Of a stretch of DNA of 64,000 nt, positions 18,959 through 24,036 are shown one piece after another. The position numbers and the translations under genes are program-made. This DNA is from an uncultured Armatimonadota bacterium. GTDB taxonomy: Bacteria; Armatimonadota; Fimbriimonadia; Fimbriimonadales; Fimbriimonadaceae. Position 1 is the first letter of the stretch; each line of letters opens with the position of its first letter. The notes beneath the pieces were generated by a model, which saw nothing but the letters and a program-made list of their open reading frames with translations, was not told where the DNA came from and searched no databases. Where the stretch lies: contig CAIYLG010000008.1 of the NCBI GenBank assembly GCA_903927025.1, positions 1 through 64,000 on the forward strand. Reading direction: 5' to 3'.

Positions 18959-19642
18959 CTAAGAGCTGATGAATTTCAGGAGGCGAGTCGAGTTCTCATA
19001 AGCTGGGTTGATCTTGAGGGATTTCTCCAGGTCAGCCTTTGCTTTCGGAACCAGCTTCAGCTGAACTTCGGCCTGGGCCCTTGCAAAGTAATAGCCCTCA
19101 CGCCCATCGTGATGCTTAATGGCGAGGTCGGCCTCTTCGATCGCCTTCTGATAGTCATGGCGACCGTAAGCGACAAGGCTCAGCAGATGGTGGCAGTCTG
19201 CCGTTACCGCCTCAACCTTGGCCGTATCGTCGAACGTCTTGAGGTTGCTCGGTAATGGCGAATCAGCCAAAGCCTGGTTCAATCTCTGGTCCGCAGTGTC
19301 TGTGTCTCCCGCAAGAAAGTACAGTAGCCCGGCGGCATAATATCCTGCCTCCAAATCGGGTCGGTAGGCGTTCATGCTGTCCATGATCTTTGCATCGGTC
19401 AGTGCGATGTCCCGATCAGCAGGTTCCAGCTCTTGGCCCTCGTTGAACTTTTCAACAGCCGGCCGAGATGTCCTCGTTACTTGGTCTAAAGCATCATTGA
19501 ACTGGGCGTCGCTTTCAACTACGGTTGCACCGTTCGGCAACTTGCCCGGCCGATTGGAGAGAATCATCACGACCGCGATCACGAGGGTTACCGCAAATGG
19601 AACCCCAACCCTTGTTTTTAGACTGACAGTATTAGCTTGCAA
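18959..19642 (-). CDS. Membrane-anchored TPR-like protein
   Basis: 227 aa. One N-terminal transmembrane helix (VGVPFAVTLVIAVVMIL, about 13-29), then an extracytoplasmic domain with TPR-type helix pairs: EAGYYAAGLLYFLAGDTDTADQRLNQAL, HLLSLVAYGRHDYQKAIEEADLAI, and YFARAQAEVQLKLVPKAKADLEKSLKINP. Probably a scaffold for protein contacts; partner unknown. The start appears to be TTG 19642, overlapping the leuS stop by 11 bases, so it is likely co-transcribed with leuS. Confidence 0.7.
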   Translation of the reverse strand: MQANTVSLKTRVGVPFAVTLVIAVVMILSNRPGKLPNGATVVESDAQFNDALDQVTRTSRPAVEKFNEGQELEPADRDIALTDAKIMDSMNAYRPDLEAGYYAAGLLYFLAGDTDTADQRLNQALADSPLPSNLKTFDDTAKVEAVTADCHHLLSLVAYGRHDYQKAIEEADLAIKHHDGREGYYFARAQAEVQLKLVPKAKADLEKSLKINPAYENSTRLLKFISS

Positions 19643-22289
19643 CCAGGTTCACCAGCTTCCTTGGCACAACGATCACCTTGCGAATCGTCTTACCTTCCAA
19701 ATGGCTTTGAACCTTCGGAAGTGACTTCGCAACAGCTTCCAACTCTTCGTTGGTTGCTGCTGCATCCATCTCAATTGTATCGCGAAGCTTGCCGTTGACC
19801 TGTATGGCCACCGTCACAAGATCGTCTGTCGCCAATTCTGAGACGAACGTCGGCCACACCTCGTTCACGACAAATCCCTTGTGTCCCAATGTCGTCCACA
19901 ACTCGTCCGCAGAATGCGGCGCAGACGGACTCAGCATCTTGATGAGCGATTCAATAGCTTCAGACAACGTGAGAGCAAACGCGCGGCTCGGGTTGGCCTT
20001 GTTCCTCTGAACGAGGTCGGTCAGTTCGTTGACAAAGATCATCATTGACGAAACGTAGGTATTGAACGCGAAGCGGTCGATATCGGCGGTCGCCTTTCGG
20101 ATGGTCTTGTGCGTTTTTCGGCGGACTTCGCGGGCAACGCTGTCCAACTCTTCAAAGCCAACGAGCCCCTTCCACTCAGGGACATAGAACGCCTTTGATT
20201 CATCGATTAGCTTGAAAATCTTGCTGAGGAACCGAACCTGTCCCTGCATGCCCTCATTAGACCACTGAACATCGGCATTGAATGGAGCAACGAAAAGCAG
20301 ATACATTCTGAGGGCATCCGCCCCGTAGCCCCCCACAGCATCTTCTGGAGTGACCACGTTCCCTTTGGACTTAGACATCCTTGCCCACCGGTAGAAGATG
20401 TCCTCTTCCGGCAGCTTTGCCGCATCGACAAAGGAAAGGAGGACACCTTCCTCCCCAACCTCAAGCTTCTCATCTACTCTTGGATAACGATACGGTGTCT
20501 GTGCCAACACCTGACCCTGATTTTCCAGTCGAGCAAACGGTTCCTTGACGGTTACGAGGCCCGCGTCGTAAAGCACCTTGGTCCAGAACCGGGCATAGAG
20601 TAGATGCATCACTGCATGCTCAGCACCACCTACGTAGCAGTCCACCGGCATCCAATACTTTGCCTTGTCAAAATTCCATGGCTCGGTCTTGTTCGATGGA
20701 TCGCAGAATCGCAGGAAATACCACGAAGAGCAGGCAAATCCACCCATGGTGTCAGTCTCACGCTGCCCTAACCGCCCATCTAGATCCGTTGTGTTGACGA
20801 AATCTGGGATGTGAGCCAGTGGCGAAGTTCCATCACCGGATGGTTCGTACTCGTCCACCATCGGCAGCTCCACCGGCAGACAATCCTGCGGCACCAGCTG
20901 CATCTCGCCGTCCTTAGTGTGGATGATGGGAATGGGACAGCCCCAGTACCTCTGTCGAGAAATCAGCCAGTCGCGAAGTCTGAACTGCACCTTTCGCTCG
21001 CCGATGCCTAGCCCTTCAATCCAGATTCCAAGCGCGGTCATCGATTCGAAGACCGGCATGCCGGAGTACTCACCGGAATTGACAAGCACTCCGTCCTTTG
21101 CAATGAAAGGAAGTTTGACCTGCGCCCCATCCGTTGGAGCAATGACCTGAATCACTTCTATTCCGAACTTTTTAGCGAACTCGAAGTCTCGCTCATCGTG
21201 TGCCGGAACCGCCATGATAGCGCCAGTTCCATAGGTCGCCAGAACGTAGTCGGCAACCCAGATCGGCACTTTCGCACCATTTGCAGGATTGATCGCATAG
21301 GCACCAGTAAACACTCCCGTCTTCTCACGGTTGGTCGCGAGGCGGTCGATATCGCTCAGAGTCTTCGCTCGAAGCTGATAGGCGCGGACGCTTTCAGCAT
21401 GCACCTCGTCAACTCCACGGAGGATCCTCTCCAACAGCGGATGCTCTGGCGCAAGAACACAGAACGTCATACCAAAAACCGTGTCGATTCGAGTCGTAAA
21501 GACATCGAATGCCAAGGCACCTCGGCTGTTCTTCACCGCAAAGCCGTCTTCAGACACTTCGTCGGGTGCCGCACTGTCGGCAATCACCATCGAGAACTGC
21601 ACGCCCTCGCTTCGTCCGATCCAATTCCTCTGTTGACTCTTGATTCCCTCTGGCCAATCAAGTTCATCGAGGTCATCAAGCAGTCGCTGCGCGTAGTCAG
21701 AAATCTTGAAGAACCACTGAGGTATCCACTTCTTCTCAACAAGAGCCCCGGAGCGCTCCGCCCGTCCGGCGACGATCTCCTCGTCGGCAAGAACGGTCTT
21801 GTCAACCGGGTCCCAGTTAACTGCCGCCATCGAACGGTATGCCAGTCCACGCTTGAACAGCAGTTCGAAGATCCACTGAGTCCAGCGGTAGTACTCCGGA
21901 TCTGAGCTTGAGAAGGATCGTGACCAGTCGTACGAAATGCCCACGAGTTCCATCTGCCGACGATAAGTCGCCGCATAGGACTTGATCATGGGAGCCGGAT
22001 GGGTTTTGTGCTTTATCGCCTCGTTCTCGGCAGGGAGACCGAAAGCGTCGAAGCCCATTGGATGCAGAACGTTGTAGCCCTGCATCAGCTTCATTCTGCA
22101 GATCACGTCTGTTGGAACGTAGTTTCTACAATGACCAACACTTAGGCCGGCCCCAGATGGATAGGGGAAAAAATCGGCACCATAGAATTTCGGCGCATCC
22201 GGATCGGTTCGCGTCCGAAAAAGATCCGCATCTTTCCAGCGTTGACGCCATTTTGCTTCAAAAGATGCCGGTTCATATCGGTCTGACAT
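19632..22289 (-). CDS. leuS: Leucyl-tRNA synthetase
   Basis: 885 aa, class Ia synthetase charging tRNA-Leu in the cytosol. HIGH-type motif in YPSGAGLSVGH (about 43-53), the CP1 editing domain with TTRIDTVFGMTFCVLAPEHPL and GTGAIMAVPAHDERD, KMSKS-type motif MSKSKGN (about 636-642), anticodon-binding helices and a C-terminal domain ending in KVIVVPRKLVNLV. All parts of a bacterial-type LeuRS are present. The ATG is flanked upstream by an inverted repeat enclosing a -10-like box. Confidence 0.97.
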   Translation of the reverse strand: MSDRYEPASFEAKWRQRWKDADLFRTRTDPDAPKFYGADFFPYPSGAGLSVGHCRNYVPTDVICRMKLMQGYNVLHPMGFDAFGLPAENEAIKHKTHPAPMIKSYAATYRRQMELVGISYDWSRSFSSSDPEYYRWTQWIFELLFKRGLAYRSMAAVNWDPVDKTVLADEEIVAGRAERSGALVEKKWIPQWFFKISDYAQRLLDDLDELDWPEGIKSQQRNWIGRSEGVQFSMVIADSAAPDEVSEDGFAVKNSRGALAFDVFTTRIDTVFGMTFCVLAPEHPLLERILRGVDEVHAESVRAYQLRAKTLSDIDRLATNREKTGVFTGAYAINPANGAKVPIWVADYVLATYGTGAIMAVPAHDERDFEFAKKFGIEVIQVIAPTDGAQVKLPFIAKDGVLVNSGEYSGMPVFESMTALGIWIEGLGIGERKVQFRLRDWLISRQRYWGCPIPIIHTKDGEMQLVPQDCLPVELPMVDEYEPSGDGTSPLAHIPDFVNTTDLDGRLGQRETDTMGGFACSSWYFLRFCDPSNKTEPWNFDKAKYWMPVDCYVGGAEHAVMHLLYARFWTKVLYDAGLVTVKEPFARLENQGQVLAQTPYRYPRVDEKLEVGEEGVLLSFVDAAKLPEEDIFYRWARMSKSKGNVVTPEDAVGGYGADALRMYLLFVAPFNADVQWSNEGMQGQVRFLSKIFKLIDESKAFYVPEWKGLVGFEELDSVAREVRRKTHKTIRKATADIDRFAFNTYVSSMMIFVNELTDLVQRNKANPSRAFALTLSEAIESLIKMLSPSAPHSADELWTTLGHKGFVVNEVWPTFVSELATDDLVTVAIQVNGKLRDTIEMDAAATNEELEAVAKSLPKVQSHLEGKTIRKVIVVPRKLVNLVAS

Positions 22290-22310
22290 AGTGAGACAGT
22301 TTATCTCACT
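22290..22310. promoter_or_regulatory. Inverted repeat around the putative leuS -10 box
   Basis: AGTGAGA (22290-22296) and TCTCACT (22304-22310) form a perfect 7-base inverted repeat abutting the leuS start codon. On the minus strand the middle reads TAAACT (22303-22298), a TANNNT -10 box eight bases before the ATG. It could be a repressor operator covering the promoter; if transcription started upstream instead, it would be a hairpin hiding the start codon. Confidence 0.45.
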
Positions 22311-22415
22311 GGACCGACGAGGGAGTTCTCAACCCTGAACTCAGCACATGAAGGGATGACTGCGTTCACACCCGCAGAACCACTAACCGATCTACTTAAC
22401 TCAATAGCGAATATC

Positions 22416-22466
22416 AAAAAAACGAAAAGCGCGTCGAAAACTGAGCAAGCTCAATTCGCAACGCGC
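22416..22466 (-). terminator. Intrinsic terminator of the putative ncRNA
   Basis: Read on the minus strand, GCGCGT (22466-22461) pairs with ACGCGC (22434-22429). The stem continues with TTCG/CGAA across a two-base bulge and TGAG/CTCA, and is followed by TTTTCGTTTTTTT. A GC-rich stem plus a U-rich tail is the standard intrinsic terminator form. Confidence 0.65.
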
Positions 22467-22926
22467 ATATCGTTTGCTCTCCACGGAATCACCTATAAAG
22501 GTGACTCCGTCTAGAGCGTTCAGTACGTGCTTACCTCCGCGTCATCTTTCAACGACGTATCGACTTGCCGACACTGATGCGAGCCCTTGATCGGGGAGGG
22601 CGAATGTACACCCGTCTTTCCCCTATTCTCCACTGATTCGATCGTCATCTCCTCAGCCGAGGTGGCAAGCGCTCAAACCTTCCGTTGACACCGAAGACAC
22701 ACTTGGCTCTTCGGCGCTACTCTGCTAAGGCACTGGTCCAAGAGTCCTCAGTAGGTTGCGTAAGGCTTTTTTTGCTTCGGTGAGCGGTCTTAGTCCTGCT
22801 CTTCCGGGCTCTTTCGAACTCGTCGCGGAAGTCCTCCGCGTCTCAGCTTTGCAATCCCCAGGAGAAGAGGCTCCTGATCCCGTTCTTTCGTTCGGGGCTG
22901 TGGTCCGTTTCACCTCAGCGGCTTAC
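22416..22926 (-). ncRNA. Putative structured noncoding RNA of about 0.5 kb, or long leuS leader
   Basis: There is no convincing protein gene between leuS and the aldo/keto reductase; the 62-codon GTG frame at 22725-22913 looks like chance. On the minus strand this stretch lies between a strong promoter and an intrinsic terminator, and it is full of perfect local stems: 22859-22876 (CAGGAG/CTCCTG), 22825-22839 (GCGGA/TCCGC), 22691-22714 (7 bp), and 22484-22509 (9 bp with one mismatch, loop of six). I searched by eye for RNase P RNA P4 motifs, the SRP apical loop, a tmRNA tRNA-like end and T-box elements, and found none. It may be an independent RNA or a terminated leader of leuS, whose start lies about 127 bases downstream. 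Confidence 0.5.
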
Positions 22927-22932
22927 AACATC

Positions 22933-22961
22933 ACTATACAGGCATGGATATCAAATGCCAA
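22933..22961 (-). promoter_or_regulatory. Strong sigma70-type promoter for the putative ncRNA
   Basis: On the minus strand, TTGGCA (22961-22956), a 17-base spacer and TATAGT (22938-22933) match the consensus TTGACA-17-TATAAT at 5 of 6 and 5 of 6 positions. It is the best two-box promoter I see in the window. The predicted start of transcription is near 22926. Confidence 0.6.
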
Positions 22962-23052
22962 CATTTTTTTTGTTTTGTTTTCCACCACCCTATGTGGATA
23001 ACTGATTGAGCAGTTCAGCAGATCCTTACTCGTAAAGGTAGCATTCCTAGTC

Positions 23053-24036
23053 GTGAAGCTTCGAGAGTTGGGAAAGACCGGTTGGAAAGTTAGTGAGGTT
23101 AGTTTCGGTGCTTGGGCAGTAGGAGGCACATGGGGTCCTGTAGACGACTCAGAGTCCCTCCTTGCCATGCATCGCGCTGTGGACATGGGTGTCAACTTCT
23201 TTGACACCGCCGACGTTTACGGAGATGGCCGAAGCGAGCGACTCCTCCGACAGCTCCGGTCCGAAAGGTCAGAGACCCTCTACATCGCCACGAAAGCGGG
23301 CCGCAGGCTGAATCCGCACGTCGCAGATGGCTACACATCGGCAAATCTCACCGCATTCGTGGATCGCTCACTCCACAACCTTGGAACCGAGGCGATCGAC
23401 CTGCTTCAACTCCACTGCCCTCCTACGGATGTCTACTTCCGACCTGAAGTGTTCGAAGCCCTTGAGCGACTGGTTGAACAGGGAAAGCTTCGCTACTACG
23501 GCCTGAGCGTCGAGCGTGGCGAGGAGGCACTAAAGGCAATGGAGTACCCAAATGTCCAGTCCATACAAATCATTTTCAATATCTTTCGGCAGCGCCCAGC
23601 AGGTCTCGTCTTTAGGGAAGCCAAAGCGCGTCAAATAGGCATTCTCGCTCGGCTGCCCCTCAGTTCCGGGATGCTCACGGGAAAGATGACTCCCGATACC
23701 AAGTTCTCAGAGGATGATCATCGAGCGTTCAATCGGGAAGGCGCCGCATTTGATAAGGGAGAGACCTTCTCCGGCGTACCTTACGCGGTTGGACTCGAAG
23801 CTGTCGAAGAGGTCCGCCGCCTCCTTCCTGAGGGCTACAGCATGGCCCAGTTCGCACTCAAGTGGATACTGATGCACGATGCAGTAACCTGCGCAATTCC
23901 CGGCGCTAAAACCGTTCCGCAGGCTACCGATAACTTTGGCGCTTCCAACTTGCCCGACTTGGACGAACGGACGATGCACTCGCTTACGAGTCTGTATCGA
24001 TCAAAAATTGCACCCTATGTCCATCAGAGGTGGTAG
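23053..24036 (+). CDS. Aldo/keto reductase
   Basis: 327 aa, NADPH-dependent oxidoreductase with a TIM-barrel fold. The catalytic tetrad is visible: Asp and Tyr in FFDTADVYGDGRSE, Lys in IATKAG, His in LLQLHCPP. The C-terminal cofactor part (AIPGAKTVPQATDNFGASN) is typical. It starts at GTG 23053 (MKLRELGKTGWKVSEVSFG is the usual AKR beginning), with an AAAGG sequence somewhat far upstream. Substrate unknown. A MarR gene follows in the same direction and may regulate it. Confidence 0.92.
   Translation: MKLRELGKTGWKVSEVSFGAWAVGGTWGPVDDSESLLAMHRAVDMGVNFFDTADVYGDGRSERLLRQLRSERSETLYIATKAGRRLNPHVADGYTSANLTAFVDRSLHNLGTEAIDLLQLHCPPTDVYFRPEVFEALERLVEQGKLRYYGLSVERGEEALKAMEYPNVQSIQIIFNIFRQRPAGLVFREAKARQIGILARLPLSSGMLTGKMTPDTKFSEDDHRAFNREGAAFDKGETFSGVPYAVGLEAVEEVRRLLPEGYSMAQFALKWILMHDAVTCAIPGAKTVPQATDNFGASNLPDLDERTMHSLTSLYRSKIAPYVHQRW

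Follow-up and report, generated by a model that had tools for sequence, protein, structure and literature searches.

Bacterial RNAs of large size and complex fold belong to very few families. Among these, ROOL and GOLLD RNAs reside in phages or prophages, frequently close to tRNA islands. The RNA gene described here, by contrast, was not found in phage, plasmid or viral collections (IMG/VR contigs included), and no tRNA or tmRNA was found in the window, by which we mean the whole analysed stretch of 64,000 nucleotides (contig CAIYLG010000008.1 of assembly GCA_903927025.1, from an uncultured member of the Fimbriimonadaceae). OLE, ROOL and GOLLD are large and intricately folded, and kissing loops are important in their solved structures; the kissing loops of such large ornate RNAs build oligomers, and their functions are poorly understood (PMC12286853). 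The RNA of the window is likewise large, intricately folded and non-coding and has a putative kissing loop, but it is shorter, occurs in another taxon, stands behind a putatively dyad-controlled promoter and has no match in Rfam. 6S RNA, another stand-alone regulatory RNA gene in the bacterial chromosome, forms one rod with a central bubble, whereas the RNA described here is longer (about 350-520 nt across species), consists of many separate hairpins, two of them with complementary loops, and is not matched by the 6S covariance model. RNase P RNA, tmRNA and SRP RNA are further examples of large structured RNA genes. A search of a limited literature collection retrieved no paper on noncoding RNA, structured RNA or riboswitches in Fimbriimonas or Armatimonadetes, a poorly studied phylum that nevertheless includes the cultured and fully sequenced Fimbriimonas ginsengisoli. 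In the following, the genome of the window is G000, other G numbers denote the genomes compared and C numbers contigs; coordinates refer to the minus strand of the window unless stated otherwise.

According to the initial annotation, the locus could be a large structured RNA of no assigned family, equipped with a promoter and a terminator of its own, or, alternatively, a long leader of the downstream gene; Rfam searches, conservation in relatives and covariation had been named as checks. The first of these two proposals was borne out, and the stretch is very probably a real structured ncRNA gene, judging from sequence comparison: promoter and terminator are conserved, coding frames are lacking and the stems covary. 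The sigma-70-type promoter TTGGCA-17-TATAGT (22933..22961) is exactly as first described, matches the consensus in 10 of 12 positions and is the sole such site within 22200-23100, where 0.4 would be expected; its spacing is kept at homologous loci. With the 5' end inferred about 7 nt past the -10 box, the predicted non-coding RNA of ~510 nt extends over 22415..22927, and the promoter suggests that it may be strongly expressed. Folding predictions place an intrinsic terminator with a GCGCG-rich hairpin and a U-rich tail at its 3' end (22415..22466). The terminal hairpin (22466-22429, fold z = -4.1) is followed by TTTTCGTTTTTTT; this terminator was not picked up by a simple terminator scan, and comparable GC-rich hairpins with U-rich tails terminate the homologues too.

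The RNA of ~510 bases folds at -208.1 kcal/mol compared to -171.0±6.8 kcal/mol for 100 dinucleotide shuffles (z = -5.4), in agreement with the structure originally claimed, and z ranged from -1.7 to -6.7 against shuffles for 12 sequences including the window RNA. Near the 5' end, the stem of hairpin A (GCUG-a-GGU / ACC-a-CAGC, 22897..22919) is kept in 13 homologues with exchanges such as U-A/G-C and A-U/G-C/U-A/C-G (stems segmented by hand). The core (22675-22768, which is also the extent of the match to the improved covariance model R2) consists of a closing stem, formed by a 5' strand at 22759..22768 and a 3' strand at 22675..22684, and the two hairpins H1 (22723..22753) and H2 (22691..22714). 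In the middle of the closing stem, G-A/A-G mismatches were read by eye in several congeners, with Watson-Crick pairs at this place elsewhere. The loop of H1 contains CUUGG (22742-22738) and that of H2 the complementary CCAAG (22706-22702). This complementarity is found in 15 of 15 aligned sequences, and an H1/H2 pair with CUUGG and CCAAG is also readable in the divergent G011 and the very divergent G032; since these pairs never vary, covariation is silent on a kissing loop. The linker GUAGCG and both core loops are nearly invariant, beyond what pairing needs. The 3' domain is variable and comprises a hairpin with the loop region GAUGACGAU (22632..22657), predicted both on a 6-sequence alignment and for the window RNA alone, and a predicted hairpin bearing the conserved GGGUGUACAUYCGCC (22593..22623), which was also read in G011, G031 and G032; the motif or a close form of it occurs in most Fimbriimonas, G031 and G032. 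The RNAs of G030 and G086 are without a 3' domain and total 347-349 nt. In G019, the 3' third of the RNA is missing and an opposing PQQ-repeat-like ORF terminates within the RNA.

For covariation, 15 distinct sequences with 30 pairs were aligned (alignment A3, core segmented by hand). Standard pairs make up 87.6% of the pair cells, and both sides have changed in 18 of the 30 pairs, namely in eight of ten pairs of the closing stem, six of eight of H1 and four of seven stem pairs of H2. Altogether, 57 cells with changes on both sides were counted, compared to 19.4±3.7 in shuffles (0 of 500 reached this number), a control that ignores shared ancestry; sliding the 3' partners out of register left only 4-15 such cells. 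Comparison of the sequences thus establishes the stems, and closing stem, H1 and H2 appear to covary strongly, as expected for the structured RNA initially suggested.

At the DNA level, near-full-length or two-thirds homologues with 75-79% identity were found in three congeners, with short matches elsewhere. A first covariance model (R1), built from the most conserved 80 columns of seven sequences, detected 16 loci in 15 genomes at E<=1.4e-4, all within five genera of one GTDB family, the Fimbriimonadaceae, so that conservation in relatives was confirmed. R1 thereby reached loci in three further genera, where a promoter and a terminator-like hairpin are present at the expected places. A promoter-based search added two divergent loci (G032 and G036), both missed by the models, which raises the number of genera to seven. 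When 291 genomes of the phylum were searched, R2 recovered those already known from R1 and, apart from a match in G137 at E = 0.001, detected the RNA nowhere else; this match and one in G013 (E 0.02) look like coding DNA when the sequence is read. Weak model matches in other genera (E 0.06-0.9) were dropped, with no dyad nearby, and no other convincing locus came out of sensitive searches that covered the genus and another 40 members of the family. In 13 of the 20 congeners examined the RNA was not detected, which means that these species can dispense with it or that it has diverged there beyond recognition. Within the range searched, it looks like a previously undescribed family confined to the Fimbriimonadaceae. 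Two copies of the RNA, diverged from each other, are present in G031. The sequence JADZEW010000008.1, titled as Methanoregulaceae archaeon, carries this Fimbriimonadaceae RNA and is probably a mislabelled or mis-binned MAG.

Several other readings of the locus have to be considered, among them a small-protein or antisense coding region mistaken for an RNA. The longest sense ORF across the ~510 bases has 62 amino acids, no sense frame is conserved among homologues and neither strand offers a frame that is open in every one of them, in line with the lack of a convincing protein gene noted before. Long open stretches do occur in antisense frames of some homologues, as expected for GC-rich DNA, but indels break the phase of the frames and the compensatory changes in the stems argue against coding, so that the chance of a translated region is practically negligible. 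The second possibility raised by the initial annotation, a long terminated leader controlling leuS, did not hold up. The leucyl-tRNA synthetase gene leuS (Pfam; 19632..22289) starts ~125 nt past the terminator on the same strand and is the next gene in G004 as well. However, it follows the RNA only in G000 and G004, and elsewhere the next genes encode unrelated proteins, such as a shikimate dehydrogenase-like protein (G030, G086), Fpg (convergent, G098), citrate synthase (G090), FabH (G091), an epimerase (G011), a fasciclin (G032) and a hydroxyacid dehydrogenase (G036), with several of the downstream genes convergent to the RNA. Since almost every genome has another gene downstream of the RNA, synteny contradicts a leuS leader and establishes the independence of the RNA from this gene; as T-box and other Rfam riboswitch matches are also lacking, a 5' leader of leuS, whether attenuator, T-box-like or riboswitch, is hardly credible.

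If the locus were a known housekeeping RNA in divergent form, 6S RNA would be the most plausible candidate; the separate promoter and the stand-alone gene would agree with it, and the 6S model (RF00013) has no match elsewhere in the genome. This silence means little, because RF00013 matches only 8 of 14 control genomes and misses 6. Rfam 15 at the gathering threshold returned nothing in the whole window, and a relaxed search at E<=10 gave only two chance-level matches at this locus, neither of them credible; the homologous RNAs likewise yielded nothing credible at gathering or relaxed thresholds. Thus, the earlier distinction from RNase P RNA, tmRNA, SRP RNA, 6S RNA and T-box was upheld. RNase P RNA (RF00010, C56) and tmRNA (RF00023, C52), both above cut-off, and an SRP-like RNA on C62, below the family cut-off, sit elsewhere in the genome, and considering the structural differences from the 6S rod, we regard a disguised housekeeping RNA as very unlikely. 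A mobile or selfish element, whose transposition would account for the scattered positions, might be suspected from the changing genomic neighbours, the two copies in G031 and related promoters in front of other RNAs in G002 and G009, arranged in tandem in at least G002. Against this, most genomes have one copy only, no protein gene recurs beside the RNA in the loci that were read, phages, plasmids and IMG/VR contigs gave no match, and the AKR/MarR-side neighbourhood is kept in four congeners (the divergent aldo/keto reductase gene identified by Pfam, 23053..24036 on the plus strand, is shared with G004 and G012), leaving only a slim chance for this explanation.

The preferred reading of the locus as an independent RNA gene gains detail from the region upstream of the promoter. 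A 24-bp dyad, TTATCCAC-N8-GTGGAAAA (22978..23001), with DnaA-box-like half-sites is centred near -63 and represents a putative activator site; it is separated from the -35 box by an A-rich, possibly UP-element-like spacer of 16 nt (22962..22977), which has the same length in most homologues and 15 nt in two. At its best, the module reads TTWTNCAC-N8-GTGGAWAA, 16 nt, TTGNNN-17-TANNNT. Exact matches to TTWTNCAC-N8-GTGGAWAA occur once per genome in G000, G004, G012, G019 and G011, always at the RNA, whereas the reversed pattern used as control had zero matches in these genomes. A search with the composite of dyad, 16 nt and TTG-promoter matched the RNA loci at 0-1 mismatches. About half of the loci have the intact dyad with its 8-nt spacer; at the remaining ones, a single half-site, degenerate half-sites or a different spacing is seen. 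The promoter architecture is thereby established by comparison between genomes, and the dyad very probably is a regulatory site. As in DnaA-box-regulated promoters, its half-sites match TTATNCACA, and it is possible, if somewhat doubtful, that the protein binding to it is DnaA; no dyad-type box pair was seen near dnaA in four genomes, and only a few canonical DnaA boxes were described in the F. ginsengisoli genome (PMC4072686). A function of the dyad as origin of replication is unlikely, as the RNA of G007 is located at 3.09 Mb and the skew-predicted origin of F. ginsengisoli near 5.13 Mb (PMC4072686), provided that G007 is the F. ginsengisoli genome in the coordinate system of that paper. In G017 (C5:218229-218252), a TTATCCAC-N8-GTGGATAA dyad and a third box immediately precede an ORF that reads as an ftsZ-like gene, and a link of the regulator to cell division is therefore possible.

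As an overall explanation we favour, with moderate confidence, a stand-alone, regulated and trans-acting RNA gene of the Fimbriimonadaceae with a tertiary core. The sigma-70 promoter would be switched on by a DNA-binding protein that sits on the conserved dyad, some 63 bp before the start, and faces the promoter in the manner of class-I activators. Transcribed on its own, the RNA would stop at the terminator of this gene. Its 5' hairpins would fold locally, whereas closing stem, H1 and H2 would pack into a compact tertiary unit, held together by a 5-bp kiss between the two loops. This central domain might act in trans by offering a surface on which a protein or further copies of the RNA bind or assemble, with the 3' domain as a replaceable accessory. 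We consider it likely that the kiss forms, within or between molecules. A role of the RNA as scaffold or in assembly is proposed more tentatively, by analogy with the large ornate RNAs, in which oligomers are built through kissing loops (PMC12286853). Alternatively, the core could mainly be the binding site of one protein in an RNP, with the complementarity of CUUGG and CCAAG being incidental. The near invariance of the loops and of GUAGCG exceeds the demands of pairing, and invariant kissing pairs could reflect loops conserved for protein binding, but complementarity in all sequences of A3 and its persistence in G011 and G032 make such a coincidence rather improbable.

Beyond the regulated, trans-acting RNA gene favoured here, the locus could represent a new class of large ornate RNAs, with a kissing-loop core that assembles into RNA-only or RNA-protein complexes, with DnaA-type boxes that couple RNA synthesis to chromosome replication or cell division, and with a promoter that in sister species drives other structured RNAs instead. 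We regard this combination as speculative and unlikely in its entirety; if it were true, the regulatory circuit would outlive the sequence of the RNA. The function of the RNA is testable, as several congeners have a single copy of the promoter signature in their genome and sister species have other structured RNAs placed behind this promoter. In the RNA of G032, an H1/H2 pair can still be recognised by eye, together with a GGUGUACAUC segment. In G036, the RNA is encoded on the reverse strand behind the same promoter as the window RNA type; it is without the H1/H2 core and keeps, again as judged by eye, a GACUAAGACCG hairpin and a 3' motif in common with G090, which suggests domain shuffling. 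In G002, three other structured RNAs, each ~210-290 nt long, are arranged in tandem (C6, about 1656500-1657690), each with a dyad-type promoter and a GGGG/CCCC-type terminator. Three promoter matches in G009 precede RNAs that are similar to those of G002 and contain internally repeated modules. By sequence, the RNAs of G002 and G009 show no apparent relationship to that of the window, and they may constitute a second new RNA family.
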